Below are positions 27,537 to 33,143 of a stretch of DNA of 64,000 nucleotides, in pieces (positions within the stretch are counted from its first letter, which is position 1; each line of letters opens with the position of its first letter). The notes beneath the pieces were generated by a model. That model saw only the letters and a list, made by a program, of their open reading frames with translations, did not search any database and was not told the origin of the DNA. A program made the position numbers and the translations under genes. Where the stretch lies: assembly GCF_001975665.1 (NCBI RefSeq), contig NZ_CP019419.1:434001-498000 (forward strand), given 5' to 3'. Source of the stretch: Polaribacter reichenbachii. Lineage in GTDB: Bacteria; Bacteroidota; Bacteroidia; Flavobacteriales; Flavobacteriaceae.

Positions 27537-27570
27537 ACAAAAAAGGCTTATCGTGAGATAAGCCTTTTTT
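27537..27570 (-). terminator. trp attenuator terminator
   Basis: AAAAGGCTTATC and GATAAGCCTTTT (27541-27552 and 27557-27568) form a perfect 12-bp stem with a 4-base loop; on the minus strand it ends in six T. It lies between the leader peptide and trpE. The alternative pairing is GTGAGA just after the leader stop (27600-27595) with TCTCAC in the terminator's 5' arm and loop, extended by TAA and CC with TTA and GG. Forming one excludes the other. Confidence 0.9.
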
Positions 27571-27603
27571 ATATTTTATTTATATAGGTTTAGTTCTCAC
27601 TTA

Positions 27604-27651
27604 TTAGATAAGAGAGTTCCACCACCAAGTATTGTTTATTATATTCTTCAT
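27604..27651 (-). CDS. trpL: trp leader peptide with three consecutive Trp codons
   Basis: A 15-codon frame reads MKNIINNTWWWNSLI then TAA TAA. Three TGG codons in a row are extremely unlikely by chance in this AT-rich DNA. It lies between a consensus promoter and a terminator ahead of trpE. When Trp-tRNA is scarce the ribosome would stall on the TGG run and leave the GTGAGA segment free to form the antiterminator. A small CTTAT/ATAAG hairpin overlaps the stop codons. Ribosome-mediated attenuation of trp operons is established in other bacteria. Confidence 0.93.
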   Translation of the reverse strand: MKNIINNTWWWNSLI

Positions 27652-27660
27652 ACTGAGTTA

Positions 27661-27692
27661 CAAATGTAAAGCGCTATTTCTTTTTGCACAAA
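27661..27692 (-). promoter_or_regulatory. trp operon promoter, TTTG-N20-TACATTTG
   Basis: On the minus strand TTTG (27692-27689) and TACATTTG (27668-27661) are spaced by 20 bases, matching the Bacteroidota -33/-7 consensus well. The transcript would start only a few bases before the leader ATG at 27651. Confidence 0.8.
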
Positions 27693-27859: not shown

Positions 27860-27940
27860 CAAACAACGTGTTTGATTTGAATTTACTGAATTAATGTCTA
27901 CACCAATGATTTATCTTTTAAATTATTGGTGTTTTCTTTT
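27860..27940 (+). ncRNA. possible small RNA ending in a terminator, or an orphan terminator
   Basis: CAAACA-ACG-TGTTTG (27860-27874) forms a small hairpin. ACACCAAT (27900-27907) pairs with ATTGGTGT (27925-27932) and is followed by TTTCTTTT. This terminator-like structure lies upstream of the Asn-leader promoter with no gene before it on this strand. The rest of the 27693-27981 gap shows nothing else I can support. Confidence 0.3.
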
Positions 27941-27981
27941 AAAAACTAATTAATTAACGTGGCAGACAAAACAATTCTGTA

Positions 27982-27989
27982 TATATTTG
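27982..27989 (+). promoter_or_regulatory. -7 box (TATATTTG) of the gat-aspS operon
   Basis: TATATTTG matches the TAnnTTTG consensus exactly and ends 13 bases before the first ATG of the Asn-rich leader. No clean -33 TTTG is present 20 bases upstream, so the promoter may be moderate or assisted. Confidence 0.7.
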
Positions 27990-28002
27990 CCACCAATTAA
28001 TA

Positions 28003-28053
28003 ATGATTATGAATAATAACAACAATACTAATTTTAATAATCCTAATTTTTAG
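28003..28053 (+). CDS. asparagine-rich leader peptide of the gat-aspS operon
   Basis: The frame reads MIMNNNNNTNFNNPNF then TAG; the start may be ATG 28003 or, in frame, ATG 28009. Nine of the last fourteen codons are AAT or AAC. It lies between a consensus -7 box and a terminator, and the downstream genes encode an aspartyl-tRNA synthetase and the Asp-tRNA(Asn) amidotransferase, which together can make Asn-tRNA(Asn). The codon content therefore matches the operon's product, as in classical leader peptides. A perfect 8-bp hairpin (AATCCTAA/TTAGGATT, 28039-28057) spans the end of the frame and the stop. No protein function is expected; the act of translation is the sensor. Confidence 0.85.
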   Translation: MIMNNNNNTNFNNPNF

Positions 28054-28054
28054 G

Positions 28055-28119
28055 ATTGGAAGGTTGTTGTTTAAAAATATATAAATAAAGCCTTCCAATT
28101 TCGGAAGGCTTTACTTTTT
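28055..28119 (+). promoter_or_regulatory. Asn attenuator: mutually exclusive antiterminator and terminator
   Basis: Terminator: AAAGCCTTCC (28087-28096) and GGAAGGCTTT (28103-28112), a perfect 10-bp stem with a 6-base loop and then ACTTTTT. Antiterminator: ATTGGAAGG (28055-28063) is exactly complementary to CCTTCCAAT (28091-28099), which takes away the terminator's 5' arm. A ribosome resting on the leader stop (28051-28053) would cover 28055-28063 and allow termination; one stalled at the early Asn codons would leave it free. The terminator sits 20 bases before the gatC-like start. Confidence 0.85.
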
Positions 28120-28138
28120 AATTAAAAGCAATATTAAG

Positions 28139-28408
28139 ATGAGTAAAATTATGACAGTAGACATATTGTCTAGTATTAAAGGAGCTCAGCCATCTGAAGC
28201 TGTAAATAAATTATTTGAGGTAATTAAAAATGCCAATTCAACGAATAACAATTCTTTTAAGAATAATCATAATAATGCTGTTTCTATAGATGATTTAAGA
28301 GAGGATGTTGTAATTGACAGCCCAAATGAAGAGAAAAAAATTATCATTGAAAATTTCCCTAAAGAAAAAAACGGCTATTTAGTTGTTTCTAAAGTGATTG
28401 AAGAATAA
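28139..28408 (+). CDS. gatC: divergent GatC-like amidotransferase subunit
   Basis: This is an 89-residue protein directly before gatA. The C-terminal half matches the GatC pattern: a DDLREDVV segment, then a short acidic helix and NFPKEKNGYLVVSKVIEE, equivalent to the family's 'LREDxx ... APxxxxGxFxVPKVIE' end that wraps around GatA. The N-terminal half (TVDILSSIKGAQPSEAVNKLFEVIKNANSTNNNSFKNNHNN) does not resemble the usual two-helix start and includes an Asn-rich linker. GatC normally tethers GatA to GatB. It lies 2 bases before gatA. The assignment rests on the C-terminal motif and position. The Asn-rich run may itself make translation sensitive to Asn-tRNA supply. Confidence 0.7.
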   Translation: MSKIMTVDILSSIKGAQPSEAVNKLFEVIKNANSTNNNSFKNNHNNAVSIDDLREDVVIDSPNEEKKIIIENFPKEKNGYLVVSKVIEE

Positions 28409-28410
28409 AT

Positions 28411-29811
28411 ATGAAATCGCAAATACACAAAATCCATCAGCAATTGATGGCCAAAGAATTTACTTGTACAAAACTAGTACAAGACAGGTTAGATTTATTA
28501 AAATCCAACGCTTACAATTCTGTAAATTCCTTGTTAGATAAAATGGCTTTAGAATTGGCAGCAAAAGTTGATGCTAAAATTGAAAGCGGACAAGAAATCG
28601 GACTTTTAGAAGGAATACCTTTCGGAATTAAAGATGTTTATATGGTACAAGGAACTTACACAACTGCAAGTTCTGATTTACTTAAAAATTATAAATCGGC
28701 TTATACAGCTACAGCAATTCAGAAATTATTAGATGCAGGAGCAATTCCTTTAGTAAAAGAAAATTGCGATAGTTTTGGTCACGGATCATCCTCTGAAAAC
28801 ACCATTTTTGGTGCCGTAAAAAATGCCATTAATTCTGATTTAGTTTCAGGAGGTTCAAGTGGTGGTTCTGCTGTAAATGTTGCCAAAGATTACACCGTTT
28901 TTTCTATTGGTGGAGATACAGGTGGTTCTATTCGTCAGCCAGCAGGTTACAATAATGTCTTCGGATTAAAACCAACTTATGGTAGAATTTCGCGTTTTGG
29001 AATTATGGCATATGCATCTTCTACAGATTGTGTTGGGCCAATTGCAAAATCAATTGAAGATATTAGAATCGTTTTAAATGTAATGAGTGGTAAAGATGTT
29101 AAAGATCAAACTACTTATCAATCTTCAAAAATATCCGAAGAAACTATTTTAAGTACTGATGAAATAAAAACCGTTGGTTATTTTAAAAACTTTATAGAAA
29201 GTGATGCTATTGATACCCAAGTAAAAACAGACTTTTTAGCATCCATAGAAAAAATAAAAGCAAAAGGAATTGAAGTTAAAGAATTAGATTTCTTTGAATC
29301 TGATACTTTAGTTTCTACTTATTATACTTTGGCAATGGCTGAAACTGCTTCTAATTTATCAAGATTAGATGGTACAAATTACGGAGCAAGAATTGAAGGA
29401 GATAATTTAAAAGACACTTACGCAATTACACGTTCAGAAAATTTTTCTGAAGAATCTAAAAGAAGAATTGTTGGTGGTAATCAAGTATTATCTCAAGGTT
29501 TTTCTGATGAAATTTACTTAAAAGGTTTAAACTTAAGAGATCAAATTGCTGATAATTTTGAAAAAGACTTTAAAGAAGTAGATATTATTTTATCGCCAGT
29601 AACACCAAATACACCTCCAAAAATCGGAGACAGCTTAAACGACCCTTTAGCAATGTACTTATCTGATGCTTATACAGTTGGTTTTAGTTTAGGGCAATTA
29701 CCAACCTTAACAATACCTAAAGGAACTGCAACAGGTTTGCAAATTTCTGCAGCAAAAAACAATGATGCCTTGGTTTTACAATTCGCTAATTTCTTAAATG
29801 ATTTGATATAA
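28411..29811 (+). CDS. gatA: Asp/Glu-tRNA amidotransferase subunit A
   Basis: GatA is the amidase-signature subunit that releases ammonia from glutamine or asparagine. The Ser-cisSer-Lys triad is visible: Lys74 in IPFGIKDVYM, Ser149 in SGGSSGGSAVN and nucleophile Ser173 in DTGGSIRQPAG; the distances between them equal those in known GatA proteins. The rest follows the family (NVFGLKPTYGRISRFGIMAYASSTDCVGPIAKS). At 466 residues it is slightly shorter than the usual 480-490. Its stop overlaps the gatB-aspS start by one base (TAATG), so subunits are made in a coupled way. Confidence 0.95.
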   Translation: MKSQIHKIHQQLMAKEFTCTKLVQDRLDLLKSNAYNSVNSLLDKMALELAAKVDAKIESGQEIGLLEGIPFGIKDVYMVQGTYTTASSDLLKNYKSAYTATAIQKLLDAGAIPLVKENCDSFGHGSSSENTIFGAVKNAINSDLVSGGSSGGSAVNVAKDYTVFSIGGDTGGSIRQPAGYNNVFGLKPTYGRISRFGIMAYASSTDCVGPIAKSIEDIRIVLNVMSGKDVKDQTTYQSSKISEETILSTDEIKTVGYFKNFIESDAIDTQVKTDFLASIEKIKAKGIEVKELDFFESDTLVSTYYTLAMAETASNLSRLDGTNYGARIEGDNLKDTYAITRSENFSEESKRRIVGGNQVLSQGFSDEIYLKGLNLRDQIADNFEKDFKEVDIILSPVTPNTPPKIGDSLNDPLAMYLSDAYTVGFSLGQLPTLTIPKGTATGLQISAAKNNDALVLQFANFLNDLI

Positions 29812-32800
29812 TGGAGCTAGAGAAATTAAATAATTTACTAAAAAAATACGATTTAGAACTTGTAATTGGTTTAGAAACACACGTACGTTTAAATACAAAA
29901 ACGAAGCTTTTTTGTTCTTGTGCAAATACAGAATCTGCACATCCAAATACAAATATTTGTTCTGTTTGCACAGGGCAAATGGGTGTTTTACCTTCTATTA
30001 ACAAAGAAGCAATTACTAAAGCAATTTATTTTGGTAAAGCTGTAAAATCTACTTTTGAAAATGAAGTGATTTCTTGGGATCGTAAACATTATGAATATCC
30101 AGATAATCCAAAAAACATACAGATTACACAGTTTCATAATCCTGTAATTCCTGATGGACAAGTTTCTTGTTTTAGAAATGATGGTTCTCAATTTACAGTG
30201 AATTTAACACAAGTTCATATTGAGGAAGATGCTGCAAAATTAATGCACGAAAAGAAAGTTTCTCTAGTCGATTTTAACAAAGCTGGAGTGCCATTAATTG
30301 AGATTGTAACTGAACCTTGTATCAGACATATTGAGGATGCTTCAACGTACGCACAATACATTCAAAGAATTGTGCAGAATTTAAAAATATCCGAAGCAAA
30401 TTTGGAGAAAGGTGAATTTAAATCGGATGTTTCTGTATCACTTAGAAAAAAACACAGTTATAATTTAAATCCTAGAACAGAAATCAAAAACTTGAACTCT
30501 TTTAAGTTTATGATAGAAGCTTTAAAAGAAGAAGTTGAAAAACAATTAAATTATTATATTGAGCATAAAGAATTTAGACCAGACCAAACCACTGTATTGT
30601 TTGATGCAGATTTAAAGCAAACCAAAACAATGCGTAAAAAAGAGTTTGAAGCTGATTATAGATTTATTTCTGAGCCAGATTTACCTTTTGTAAGTATTAA
30701 AAATGTTGTTGAAAGTATAGATGTTGATGTTAGTTCTTTGCCTTTTGCAGTTGAATCTATTTTGATAAAAGGTGGAGTTTTACCACAAGATGCTAAGTTT
30801 TTTACTGCGGATTCATTGCGTTCTGAAACTTTTATTGCTATTAATAATGTGATAAAAGACCCGTCTTTTGTTGCTAAAACTTTGGTAAACAATATTGGTG
30901 CAGATGAATATGCAAATATTCATAATGTAAATCAGTTAATTGAAATTTTCCAATTATTTAAAGCAGATAAAATTACGTCTGTTTTAGTACAAAATGGAAT
31001 TACTAGATATTTAAAAGACAGAACTTTCGATTACAATAAGTACTTTGAACAGAACACCATTTCTGAAGATAAAATTAAGGATGCTGTACAAAAAGTAATT
31101 AACGAAAACGAAGCAATTGCCAACGACATCAAAAATGGAAATCAAGGTAAAGCCGGAATTTTAGTTGGAAAAGTGATTAAAATTATTGGTAAAGGAGCTT
31201 CAGGAAAAGTGATTCGTGAAGAGATTCTTAATGCTGTTAGCGAAAATTCAGCCCTTATCAATTCGCCTTTAGCAGTTAGCGAAAAGCCAAGGACTAAAAG
31301 CCAACAGCCAGCTGCTAAAAACGAGGAAGAGTTGCAACAAACTCCCATAATAATCAAGGACAACTACAGAAGCCATAAAATATCAGAATTATCTGATGAC
31401 GCTATCAATACAGAAGTAACATTATCTGGTTGGGTTTCTAGTGTTAGAGATCATGGAGAATTAATTTTTATCGATTTACGTGATTCTAGTTATCAAGTTT
31501 TTCAAGTGCGTTTAAGTAGAGAAACTTTCCCAAATTTAGATGAATTGGTAAAACTAAAACCAGAAACTGTAATTATGGTTACTGGTGTTGTTGTTCAGAG
31601 AAGAGAAGATGATTATAATACTGGTTTAAGAACTGGAAAAATTGAACTAGAAACATCAGAATTAGAAATACTAAATCTTTCAAAAACATTGCCTTTTGAA
31701 ATAAAAAGAGCAATGAAAACGAATGAAAATGTTCGTTTTCAATACAAGTTTTTAGATCACAGAAATGATGAAGTTCGCAAGGCAATTGTAAACAGACATA
31801 AAGTAATTAAATTACTTCGTGATATCTTGGATGAAGAAGAATTCTTAGAAATAGAAACTCCGATTTTAACTGCAGGTACAGACGAAGGTGCAAGAGAATT
31901 TATTGTACCAACAAGAAAACAAGCAGGTTCTTTTTACACTTTACCACAAGCACCTCAACAATTTAAGCAAATGTTGATGGTTGGTGGATTTGAAAAGTAT
32001 TTCCAAATTGCACGTTGTTTTAGAGATGAAGATTCTAGAGGAGACAGACAACCAGAATTTACACAATTAGATATAGAAATGGCATACGCAAGTATGCAAC
32101 AAATTATAGATTTAAACACCAAAATGTTTAATGAAATAGTGAAAAAAATCTATGGTAAAAAATGGATTTTACGTCCTTTTGAAGTGATTACTTACAAAGA
32201 AGCTATGGATAAATATGGTTGTGATAGACCAGATTTACGTTATGGTTTAGAAATGCAAGACATTACAGAAATTGTAAAAGACACTACTTTCCAGGTTTTT
32301 AGTAAACCTATTGATGAAGGTGGAATTGTAAAATGTATTAAAGTTTCTGCGGAAGAGCAAGGCAACAAACGTATGTCTAAAGGTCAGATTGAAAACTTGA
32401 CTGCAATTGCACAACAAAATGGCTTAGGTGGTTTGGCTTACATTATTGTAAATGAAAACGATTTACAATCGCCAATTATTAAGTTTTTAGGAGAAGAAAT
32501 TGCTGCAAATATCATAAAAGCTACAGATGCTCAAATTGGTGATATTGTATTTTTCTCTGCTGCTGATTATGCTACTGCAAACAAAGCTTTAGATGCTGTT
32601 CGTCAAGAAATGGGACGAATTTTAAAGTTGATAAATCCAAAGGAATTAAGACCTGCTTGGGTGGTAGATTTTCCAATGTTCGAAAAAACGGATGAAGGCA
32701 GATGGACGTTTACACACAATCCTTTTTCTATGCCAGCTGTATATGATTTAGAAAAACATATGAATGGTGAAGGTGAAGAAATTGGAACAATTATCGCTCA

Positions 32801-33143
32801 ACAATACGATTTAATCTTAAATGGTTACGAAATTGGTGGTGGTTCTGTACGTGCACACAAAGCAGAAATTTTAGAAGCAACCTATAAAAATATGGGTTAC
32901 AATAAAGAAGAAATGATAAAAAGTGTTGGAACGATGTACAAAGCGTTTCAATATGGAGCACCTCCTCATGGAGGAATTGCTTGGGGTGTAGACAGATTAA
33001 TGATGATTTTAGAAAAGAAAACTTCTATTAGAGAAGTGATGGCTTTCCCTAAAACAGGAACATCTGAAGACTTATTATTTAATGCGCCATCCATTTTATC
33101 AGACAAAAAAGTAGAAGAAATGAATGTGAAAATTATGAGATAA
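29811..33143 (+). CDS. gatB-aspS: GatB-aspartyl-tRNA synthetase fusion
   Basis: One uninterrupted 1110-codon frame. Residues 1-478 are GatB: kinase-like amidation domain with Cys35/Cys37/Cys50/Cys53 zinc site, VHIEEDAAKLMH and DFNKAGVPLIEIVTEP, then the helical/YqeY tail ending NQGKAGILVGKVIK. Residues about 479-517 are a low-complexity linker. Residues 518-1110 are a bacterial-type AspRS: anticodon OB fold (YRSHKISEL, GWVSSVRDHGELIFIDLRD), class II motif 1 (about 675-690), motif 2 FRDEDSRGDRQPEFTQLDIE (737-756), GAD insert (about 825-935) and motif 3 GIAWGVDRLMM (1055-1065). AspRS would charge tRNA(Asn) with Asp and GatB would activate it for amidation by GatA, so the fusion joins consecutive steps. 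His548 in RDHGE resembles non-discriminating AspRS. A strong terminator follows. Confidence 0.93.
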   Translation: MELEKLNNLLKKYDLELVIGLETHVRLNTKTKLFCSCANTESAHPNTNICSVCTGQMGVLPSINKEAITKAIYFGKAVKSTFENEVISWDRKHYEYPDNPKNIQITQFHNPVIPDGQVSCFRNDGSQFTVNLTQVHIEEDAAKLMHEKKVSLVDFNKAGVPLIEIVTEPCIRHIEDASTYAQYIQRIVQNLKISEANLEKGEFKSDVSVSLRKKHSYNLNPRTEIKNLNSFKFMIEALKEEVEKQLNYYIEHKEFRPDQTTVLFDADLKQTKTMRKKEFEADYRFISEPDLPFVSIKNVVESIDVDVSSLPFAVESILIKGGVLPQDAKFFTADSLRSETFIAINNVIKDPSFVAKTLVNNIGADEYANIHNVNQLIEIFQLFKADKITSVLVQNGITRYLKDRTFDYNKYFEQNTISEDKIKDAVQKVINENEAIANDIKNGNQGKAGILVGKVIKIIGKGASGKVIREEILNAVSENSALINSPLAVSEKPRTKSQQPAAKNEEELQQTPIIIKDNYRSHKISELSDDAINTEVTLSGWVSSVRDHGELIFIDLRDSSYQVFQVRLSRETFPNLDELVKLKPETVIMVTGVVVQRREDDYNTGLRTGKIELETSELEILNLSKTLPFEIKRAMKTNENVRFQYKFLDHRNDEVRKAIVNRHKVIKLLRDILDEEEFLEIETPILTAGTDEGAREFIVPTRKQAGSFYTLPQAPQQFKQMLMVGGFEKYFQIARCFRDEDSRGDRQPEFTQLDIEMAYASMQQIIDLNTKMFNEIVKKIYGKKWILRPFEVITYKEAMDKYGCDRPDLRYGLEMQDITEIVKDTTFQVFSKPIDEGGIVKCIKVSAEEQGNKRMSKGQIENLTAIAQQNGLGGLAYIIVNENDLQSPIIKFLGEEIAANIIKATDAQIGDIVFFSAADYATANKALDAVRQEMGRILKLINPKELRPAWVVDFPMFEKTDEGRWTFTHNPFSMPAVYDLEKHMNGEGEEIGTIIAQQYDLILNGYEIGGGSVRAHKAEILEATYKNMGYNKEEMIKSVGTMYKAFQYGAPPHGGIAWGVDRLMMILEKKTSIREVMAFPKTGTSEDLLFNAPSILSDKKVEEMNVKIMR

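Follow-up and report, generated by a model that had tools for sequence, protein, structure and literature searches.

A predicted asparagine-codon attenuator upstream of gatC-gatA-gatB::aspS in Polaribacter reichenbachii and related Flavobacteriaceae

A short leader upstream of the gatC-gatA-gatB::aspS operon of Polaribacter reichenbachii is, judging from its sequence and from energy-model folding, very probably a ribosome-mediated transcription attenuator that senses, at a stretch of asparagine codons, how much Asn-tRNA(Asn) is available and controls the operon behind it. We found the leader in a window of 64,000 nucleotides (the whole stretch of DNA that was analysed), and followed it through relatives of the same family. 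Below, we set out its anatomy and the genes it precedes, the pairings on which the predicted switch depends, its distribution (including comparable leaders before asnA and asnB), and its relation to known attenuators.

Leader anatomy and the operon behind it

The leader spans positions 27982-28119 of the window, and gatC starts at 28139. The features to which we refer are the following.

27982..27989, + strand: putative -7 promoter box TAnnTTTG (TATATTTG), exact sequence match
28003..28053, + strand: leader peptide ORF, MIMNNNNNTNFNNPNF and a stop, 16 residues with nine Asn codons, read in the sequence
28018..28026, + strand: region 1 (outer part), Asn codons AACAACAAT, the partner of 28063-28071 in protector 1:2 (folding and alignment)
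28042..28054, + strand: apical part of 1:2, in which CCTAA (28042-28046) can pair with TTAGG (28050-28054), stop codon included (RNAalifold and alignment)
28053..28065, + strand: region 2, antiterminator strand GGATTGGAAGGTT, whose partner is 28089-28101 (RNAalifold, folding and alignment)
28063..28071, + strand: 3' part of region 2, GTTGTTGTT, complementary to Asn codons (folding and alignment)
28089..28101, + strand: region 3, AGCCTTCCAATTT, common to antiterminator and terminator (RNAalifold and folding)
28087..28119, + strand: predicted intrinsic terminator 3:4, a 10-bp stem with a U-rich tail (sequence and folding)
28139..28408, + strand: gatC, a divergent GatC of 89 aa with an Asn-rich stretch (TIGR00135, E 3.4e-4, 20.9 bits, below the 47.1-bit cut-off)
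28411..29811, + strand: gatA, amidotransferase subunit A (Amidase, 373.8 bits; best match TIGR00132, 434.9 bits, cut-off 481.1)
29811..33143, + strand: gatB::aspS fusion, GatB at about 14-476 and a complete bacterial-type AspRS at about 518-1108 (domain matches)

The box, which we take to be the -7 promoter box of the Bacteroidota type, lies 13 bases before the ORF, and a TAnnTTTG is found at most 90 nt 5' of the leader ATG in all 36 leaders collected here, vs 254 of 4050 random 90-nt stretches. The ORF reads ATG ATT ATG AAT AAT AAC AAC AAT ACT AAT TTT AAT AAT CCT AAT TTT TAG, with a second in-frame ATG at 28009 and the stop at 28051-28053. It is followed by GATTGGAAGGTTGTTGTTT, an A+T-rich spacer and the terminator, the stem of which joins 28087-28096 to 28103-28112 and is followed by ACTTTTT, an interrupted T-run. 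ATTGGAAGG occupies 28055-28063. A preliminary description of this DNA had listed the box, the 13-base gap, the nine-Asn mini-ORF, the terminator and the complementarity of 28055-28063 to the left arm of the terminator, and all of them stand where it placed them. The complementarity extends even further than described, to 13 contiguous pairs, wobbles counted (28053-28065 with 28089-28101). What had been overlooked is the protector 1:2, i.e., the pairing of the Asn codons with GTTGTTGTT (28063-28071).

The product of gatB::aspS has 1110 residues, and open frames about as long as this fusion (1113-1130 aa) occur in 58 of the 59 family genomes with a GatB over the cut-off. The product of gatC has no Pfam match. 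As separate observations on this gene, an Asn-rich stretch NANSTNNNSFKNNHNNA lies inside GatC (28139-28408) and is shared by many relatives, and a hairpin at the start of gatC (TCGAC-loop-GTCGA, 28154-28174, codons 6-12) is preserved by synonymous-site changes that occur in pairs. The third base of Val7 pairs with that of Ser11 in 84 of 92 distinct gatC starts (C-G in 65, A-T in 12, G-T in 4, T-G in 2 and G-C in 1), and the hairpin is present both with and without the Asn leader.

The genome (4,125,014 bases in one contig, 99.99% complete) encodes an AsnRS (618 bits), a GlnRS (728 bits) and a second, stand-alone AspRS with 41% identity to the fused one. A search for AsnA gave no match in the genome and AsnB was not found either; the sole Asn_synthase domain match reaches 21.6 bits over some 100 positions, and the best match to asn_synth_AEB (E 8.3e-16) lies below its cut-off. 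Since AsnRS and GlnRS are both there, AsnA and AsnB were not found, and the one GatB is fused to a second AspRS, the operon is the predicted sole source of asparagine, and for such an operon in a genome with neither AsnA nor AsnB detected, a shortage of Asn-tRNA would be a sensible signal. The fused AspRS carries RDHG (found in all 87 pattern hits of the loci, some genomes being counted twice) at the position corresponding to His31, presumably the signature position of non-discriminating AspRS of the P. aeruginosa type; the stand-alone enzyme has RDKG. Judging from the enzyme families, the fused AspRS would place Asp on tRNA(Asn) and GatCAB would then amidate it. The fusion would be a built-in link between a likely misacylating synthetase and the amidotransferase. 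For Bdellovibrio, a published study argues that the GatCAB route is the only way to asparagine (PMC4206432).

Three exclusive pairings and the predicted switch

Folding of the 36 aligned leaders predicts a three-state switch, namely protector 1:2, antiterminator 2:3 and terminator 3:4. If Asn-tRNA is ample, the ribosome would reach the TAG stop, where its footprint would cover region 2; with region 2 covered, 3:4 would form and transcription would end before gatC. If Asn-tRNA is scarce, the ribosome would stall on the Asn codons, covering region 1 and freeing region 2, which could then pair with region 3, so that no terminator forms and the operon is transcribed. An untranslated leader would take up both 1:2 and 3:4, leaving the operon off. 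As the product of the operon, Asn-tRNA(Asn), is itself the molecule that would be sensed, product and signal would be one.

We followed these states in the energy model with a ribosome footprint of 10 nt past the A-site codon. The core of region 2 begins, in all 36 leaders, anywhere from the last base of the stop to the sixth base beyond it. The free RNA is predicted to fold to 3:4 in 36/36 leaders. The preliminary description had proposed that a ribosome at the leader stop would cover the antiterminator strand and that one stalled on the Asn codons would not, and the model agrees on both counts: with the ribosome at the stop, 3:4 is predicted to form and 2:3 to be absent in every leader, and with the ribosome held at Asn codons upstream of the Phe codon, 2:3 is predicted with 5-6 of its 6 core pairs, again in 36/36 (the nascent RNA ending after region 3).

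The protector is found by folding in every leader. A GTTRTTGTT after the stop pairs with Asn codons in all 36 minimum-energy folds, at least seven Asn-codon bases being paired in each, and in 30 of them CCT is paired with the AGG of TTAGG; the other six (those of the window, L002, L015, L032, L033 and L044) use another apical register. The stop codon is a TAG at the place of TTAGG in 34 of 36 leaders. In L048 and L075 a one-base insertion puts TTAGG out of the stop register, and the bases of TTAGG are still kept. Three leaders carry a compensatory change in the apical part of 1:2, from CCT/TAGG to TCT/TAGA; two of these, L032 and L033, are near-identical, and the compensatory pair is unused in their minimum-energy folds. 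Where codon -2 is CGT (13 leaders), column 66 of the alignment is always G, and where it is AAT, that column is A in 15 of 19; this is what a shift of the pairing register would lead one to expect, relatedness still being included in the count.

On the alignment, 94.4% of the cells of 1:2 and 3:4 taken together are paired (98.1% for helix 1, the outer part of 1:2), compared with at most 67% when the pairing is slid. Two pairs of 1:2 and 3:4 have changed on both sides, which 75 of 500 shuffles reach as well, and six cells show both sides changed, a number reached by 0/500 shuffles. The apical part of 1:2 contributes one compensatory pair and the Asn-codon part none. For 2:3, 96.5% of the cells are paired and no pair has changed on both sides. 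Given alignment A1 as its only input, RNAalifold chose the apical 1:2 stem and 2:3; the terminator, whose 3' arm is misaligned in some rows, was not among its choices, and just one of its pairs showed changes on both sides. Among the 34 leaders whose energies vary under synonymous shuffling of AAT and AAC, no tuning to the 1:2 stem appeared (mean z -0.34). The preliminary description had proposed that conserved Asn codons, covarying stems and variable spacers in an alignment of relatives would speak for the attenuator. The Asn codons are indeed kept and the spacers vary, but covariation is slight (two pairs in 1:2 and 3:4) and absent from 2:3. Part of the conservation of the leaders may come from recent descent.

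It could also be imagined that the leader senses translation in general, e.g., through a slowed or drugged ribosome, with the Asn run being just a slow stretch of low complexity and the nascent peptide or any stall sufficing. The peptide does end in a conserved FNNPN, a possible arrest motif. However, RNA pairing (TTTC with GGAA, and CCT with AGG) may account for the TAG stop and for the conservation of the F and P codons, in three leaders P has become S along with the partner base, and asparagine is the sole residue enriched before the strict terminators that we scanned (see below), always before gatC, asnA or asnB. We therefore consider general sensing of translation improbable. On the level of the sequence and its predicted folds, the leader shows these features of a ribosome-mediated leader-peptide attenuator: the ORF, terminator, antiterminator, protector, placement of the stop and, judged by family, the product genes.

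Distribution among relatives and a control across all residues

A search of genome contigs for gatA gave 234 matching places, of which 80 loci were kept, two of them too short to judge. The element stands before gatC in 35 of the 78 testable relatives, which come from several genera of Flavobacteriaceae, and is absent in 43. As 43 of the 79 tested gatC loci have no leader, including every locus recorded as Flavobacterium, Lutibacter or Tamlana, the gatC operon can evidently do without it. The usual leader peptide is N4-7 (in some with one other residue) followed by F N N P N x, and it is always Asn-rich: the reading frame and its 6-10 Asn are kept in the 36 leaders, and the lengths of ORF and spacer vary. 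In 27 of the 36, only 42-49 nt separate the start of gatC from the point where the GC-rich left arm of the terminator begins.

These figures bear on two further readings. In the first, the region is a separate unit for a small RNA or small protein, closed off by the terminator, and gatC is transcribed from a promoter of its own. Box, ORF and terminator do make a complete small unit, and the leaderless loci must start gatC from another promoter, yet a gap of 42-49 nt leaves little room for a promoter and region 2 competes exactly with the terminator; we hold this reading to be quite unlikely. In the second, the ORF is incidental and a protein such as GatCAB or AspRS binds the hairpin of the leader and controls termination. 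Synthetase genes are known to be autoregulated through RNA binding, which lends this some precedent, but the frame and the Asn codons are kept while the spacers vary, and asnA and asnB, which do not encode GatCAB or AspRS, also have Asn-rich leaders, making it very unlikely.

A covariance model (R1) recovers 36/36 leaders in the 81 sources; on the gatC strand elsewhere in these sources it gives only one weak match (L075, 10787, E 0.087). This match was set aside, and so were 16 further ones, which lie on the minus strand over the near-palindromic terminator, making 17 beyond the 36 leaders. Of 397 genomes of the same family, some of which also sit in the gatA locus set, 41 match R1 at E 0.001, 37 of them strongly (E 8.9e-12 or lower) and four weakly. 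The strong matches occur once per genome and gatC is the next gene in all 37, though no Asn-rich ATG ORF was recovered at the strong match L118. Among the weak ones, L125 is an Asn leader before asnA, and L123 and L126, which look like plain terminators, were rejected. The fourth, L124 (G288:C8:471799-471911), has a leader rich in Ile and Val, MKRNLINIIAVVIIVIISQ, and a GGAAGG-type terminator; the gene that follows looks, by eye, like ilvD.

GatB over the cut-off was found in 59 of the 397 genomes, 36 of which have the leader; in the 37th leader genome (G162) the leader lies about 380 bases from the contig end and no GatB was seen. An AsnB over the cut-off is missing from 37 of the 59 genomes with GatB vs 30 of the 338 without it (p 7e-19, counted by hand and with relatedness still in the p value). 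An AsnB-type gene is nevertheless present in 12 of the 37 leader genomes, and in a set of 39 genomes PF00733 (AsnB-type) did not split cleanly with the leader, strong matches being found in 6/18 with and 13/21 without it (by hand). Mapped onto a quick 79-row GatA tree, the presence of the leader takes 10 changes (26.3 on average after shuffling), four of them forced by well-supported branches, and one change falls between P. glomeratus and P. filamentus, which are sister rows. This suggests that the leader is gained or lost with some ease.

To see the Asn codons against all other residues, we asked of each strict terminator in loci chosen around gatA, asnA and asnB whether an ATG mini-ORF enriched in one of the 20 residues stands ahead of it. 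On both strands of the window and the 80 loci, 2,147,234 bases together, 33 of 223 strict terminators pass, all of them Asn-rich and all the gatC leader, and not one of the remaining 190 in this 2.15 Mb follows a leader enriched in some residue. The strict filter misses three of the 36 leaders (those of the window, L001 and L031), the window and L001 probably because of an interrupted T-run. One might argue that the leader ORF is a chance stretch of low complexity in an A+T-rich genome, as AAT and AAC are frequent triplets in such DNA. Conservation in 35 of 78 testable relatives refutes this, and with 0/190 other strict terminators preceded by a residue-rich leader, we regard chance as next to impossible.

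With a slightly looser residue threshold, the same control was applied to asnA and asnB. In the 41 asnA loci, 5 of 42 strict terminators pass, all with Asn and all before asnA. In asnB loci L193-L222, 3 of 57 pass, all with Asn and all before asnB, and in the other asnB loci (L163-L192), with two strict terminators, none passes.

AsnA occurs in 29 of the 397 family genomes, and nine of the loci (L141-L149) have, by eye, Asn-rich leaders and terminators upstream. Six of these (L142, L143, L144, L145, L148 and L149) have two such leaders in series, and the coding part of several first leaders, e.g., those of L143, L148 and L149, contains the antiterminator strand (RLRKAxIV). In a phylum sample of 277 genomes AsnA was found in 13, one of them already seen, and two of the 12 others carry leaders (L226 and L229, from another family of the class), whose region 2 (GGAAGGCTGTTGTT and GGAAGGCTATTGTT) resembles that of gatC. 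No Asn leader was seen before asnA in L134-L140, L150-L162 and 10 of the 12 additional phylum loci; this absence is not firm in L134, L135, L152-L160 and L230-L234, because the start of asnA is doubtful there, nor in L161, because no ORF was obtained. For asnB, 38 genomes were picked by an E-value typical of the short form and 30 loci were examined, 29 with products of 555-586 aa and one (L194) of 618 aa. By eye, four (L214, L215, L217 and L218) have Asn leaders, in which the antiterminator starts 1-3 nt after the stop, and 26 have none.

In 16 of the 21 asnA and asnB leaders, the complementarity of the antiterminator is better than in shuffles at 0.05. The five that are not are the second leaders of L143 (0.071), L148 (0.073) and L149 (0.238) and the first leaders of L144 (0.606) and L145 (0.052). 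The case for tandem leaders is thus firmest for L142, where both antiterminators in the series do better than shuffles; the other five tandems have one such antiterminator each.

Relation to known systems and meaning

Leader-peptide attenuators are known for trp, his, ilv, leu, thr, phe and pheST. The Asn leader is like these classical attenuators in its short codon-rich ORF, three exclusive pairings, intrinsic terminator and a predicted switch set by the position of the ribosome. It differs from them in its Asn codons, in an operon predicted to make the amino acid on the tRNA, in a TAG stop that can join the 1:2 stem, and in that comparable leaders precede three unrelated types of Asn-making gene, in some cases as tandem pairs. 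Bacteroid-trp (RF01692) is also a leader-peptide attenuator in Bacteroidetes, but for tryptophan, and the Asn leader does not match its model. A copy of Bacteroid-trp is in fact present in the window (27557-27674, minus strand) before a divergent trp operon, so that two predicted leader-peptide attenuators stand back to back here, Bacteroid-trp on the minus and the Asn leader on the plus strand.

In Clostridium acetobutylicum, a T-box is said to control a gatCAB operon through tRNA(Asn) (Saad 2012), which would make it alike in being a tRNA(Asn)-linked transcription switch before an operon for tRNA-dependent amidation. A T-box binds uncharged tRNA directly and does not need translation of a leader. 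The window has no T-box match at the gathering score, and there is none among 22 weak matches over 27940-28450. The Asn leader has no match in Rfam 15 at the gathering score. Below the threshold (gathering score 55), Thr_leader (RF00506, 27.0 bits, 28013-28118) and Phe_leader (RF01859, 27.2 bits, 28015-28118) match it, probably owing to a shared architecture, the codons being Thr and Phe there and Asn here; as Phe_leader scores 28.6 bits on the minus strand too, these matches count for little.

The preliminary description knew of no described Asn-codon attenuator and of none for an amidotransferase/synthetase operon. The first part holds among the open-licence papers listed by the searches, none of which was seen to describe an Asn-codon attenuator, with Lopatovskaya 2010 as a possible precedent; the second was too wide, given that pheST is a synthetase operon with a leader attenuator. 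Lopatovskaya, Seliverstov and Lyubetsky reportedly dealt in 2010 with attenuation of amino acid and aminoacyl-tRNA operons. In the portions of the literature consulted, Bacteroides leaders with short ORFs are called reminiscent of attenuators and no asn gene is named (PMC7366714), and the asparagine codons discussed elsewhere concern tRNA modification (PMC5009743). With respect to asparagine supply, PMC4206432 describes Deinococcus, Thermus and Bdellovibrio as having AsnRS, GlnRS and GatCAB without AsnA or AsnB, and as forming Asn via a non-discriminating AspRS (ND-AspRS). The present genome resembles them in its AsnRS, GlnRS and GatCAB and in that no AsnA or AsnB was found. That study reports a second AspRS in 5 of 18 genomes, all from Deinococcus-Thermus; unlike in those bacteria, the second AspRS here is of the bacterial type and fused to GatB.

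The leader would thus work like a classical attenuator, and, as far as searched, no earlier description covers its amino acid, the route it regulates or its recurrence ahead of unrelated genes. That low Asn-tRNA(Asn) would switch on the genes that make it, as first proposed for this DNA, gains support from the conserved anatomy, the identity of the operon and the failure to find AsnA and AsnB. We further think it probable, with somewhat less assurance than for the gatC leader itself, that asparagine joins the attenuated amino acids through a switch shared in Bacteroidota before gatCAB (with GatB::AspRS), asnA and asnB, with two in series before some asnA genes.

If true, asparagine would be added to the amino acids that control their own synthesis by leader-peptide attenuation, and the switch would be the first of its kind, as far as searched, for an operon of tRNA-dependent amidation. 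The leader also points, in a way that can be tested, to a role of the GatB::AspRS fusion in supplying asparagine to bacteria that lack AsnA and AsnB. Finally, comparable leaders on three unrelated routes to asparagine would allow us to ask how such switches arise, move and get lost.
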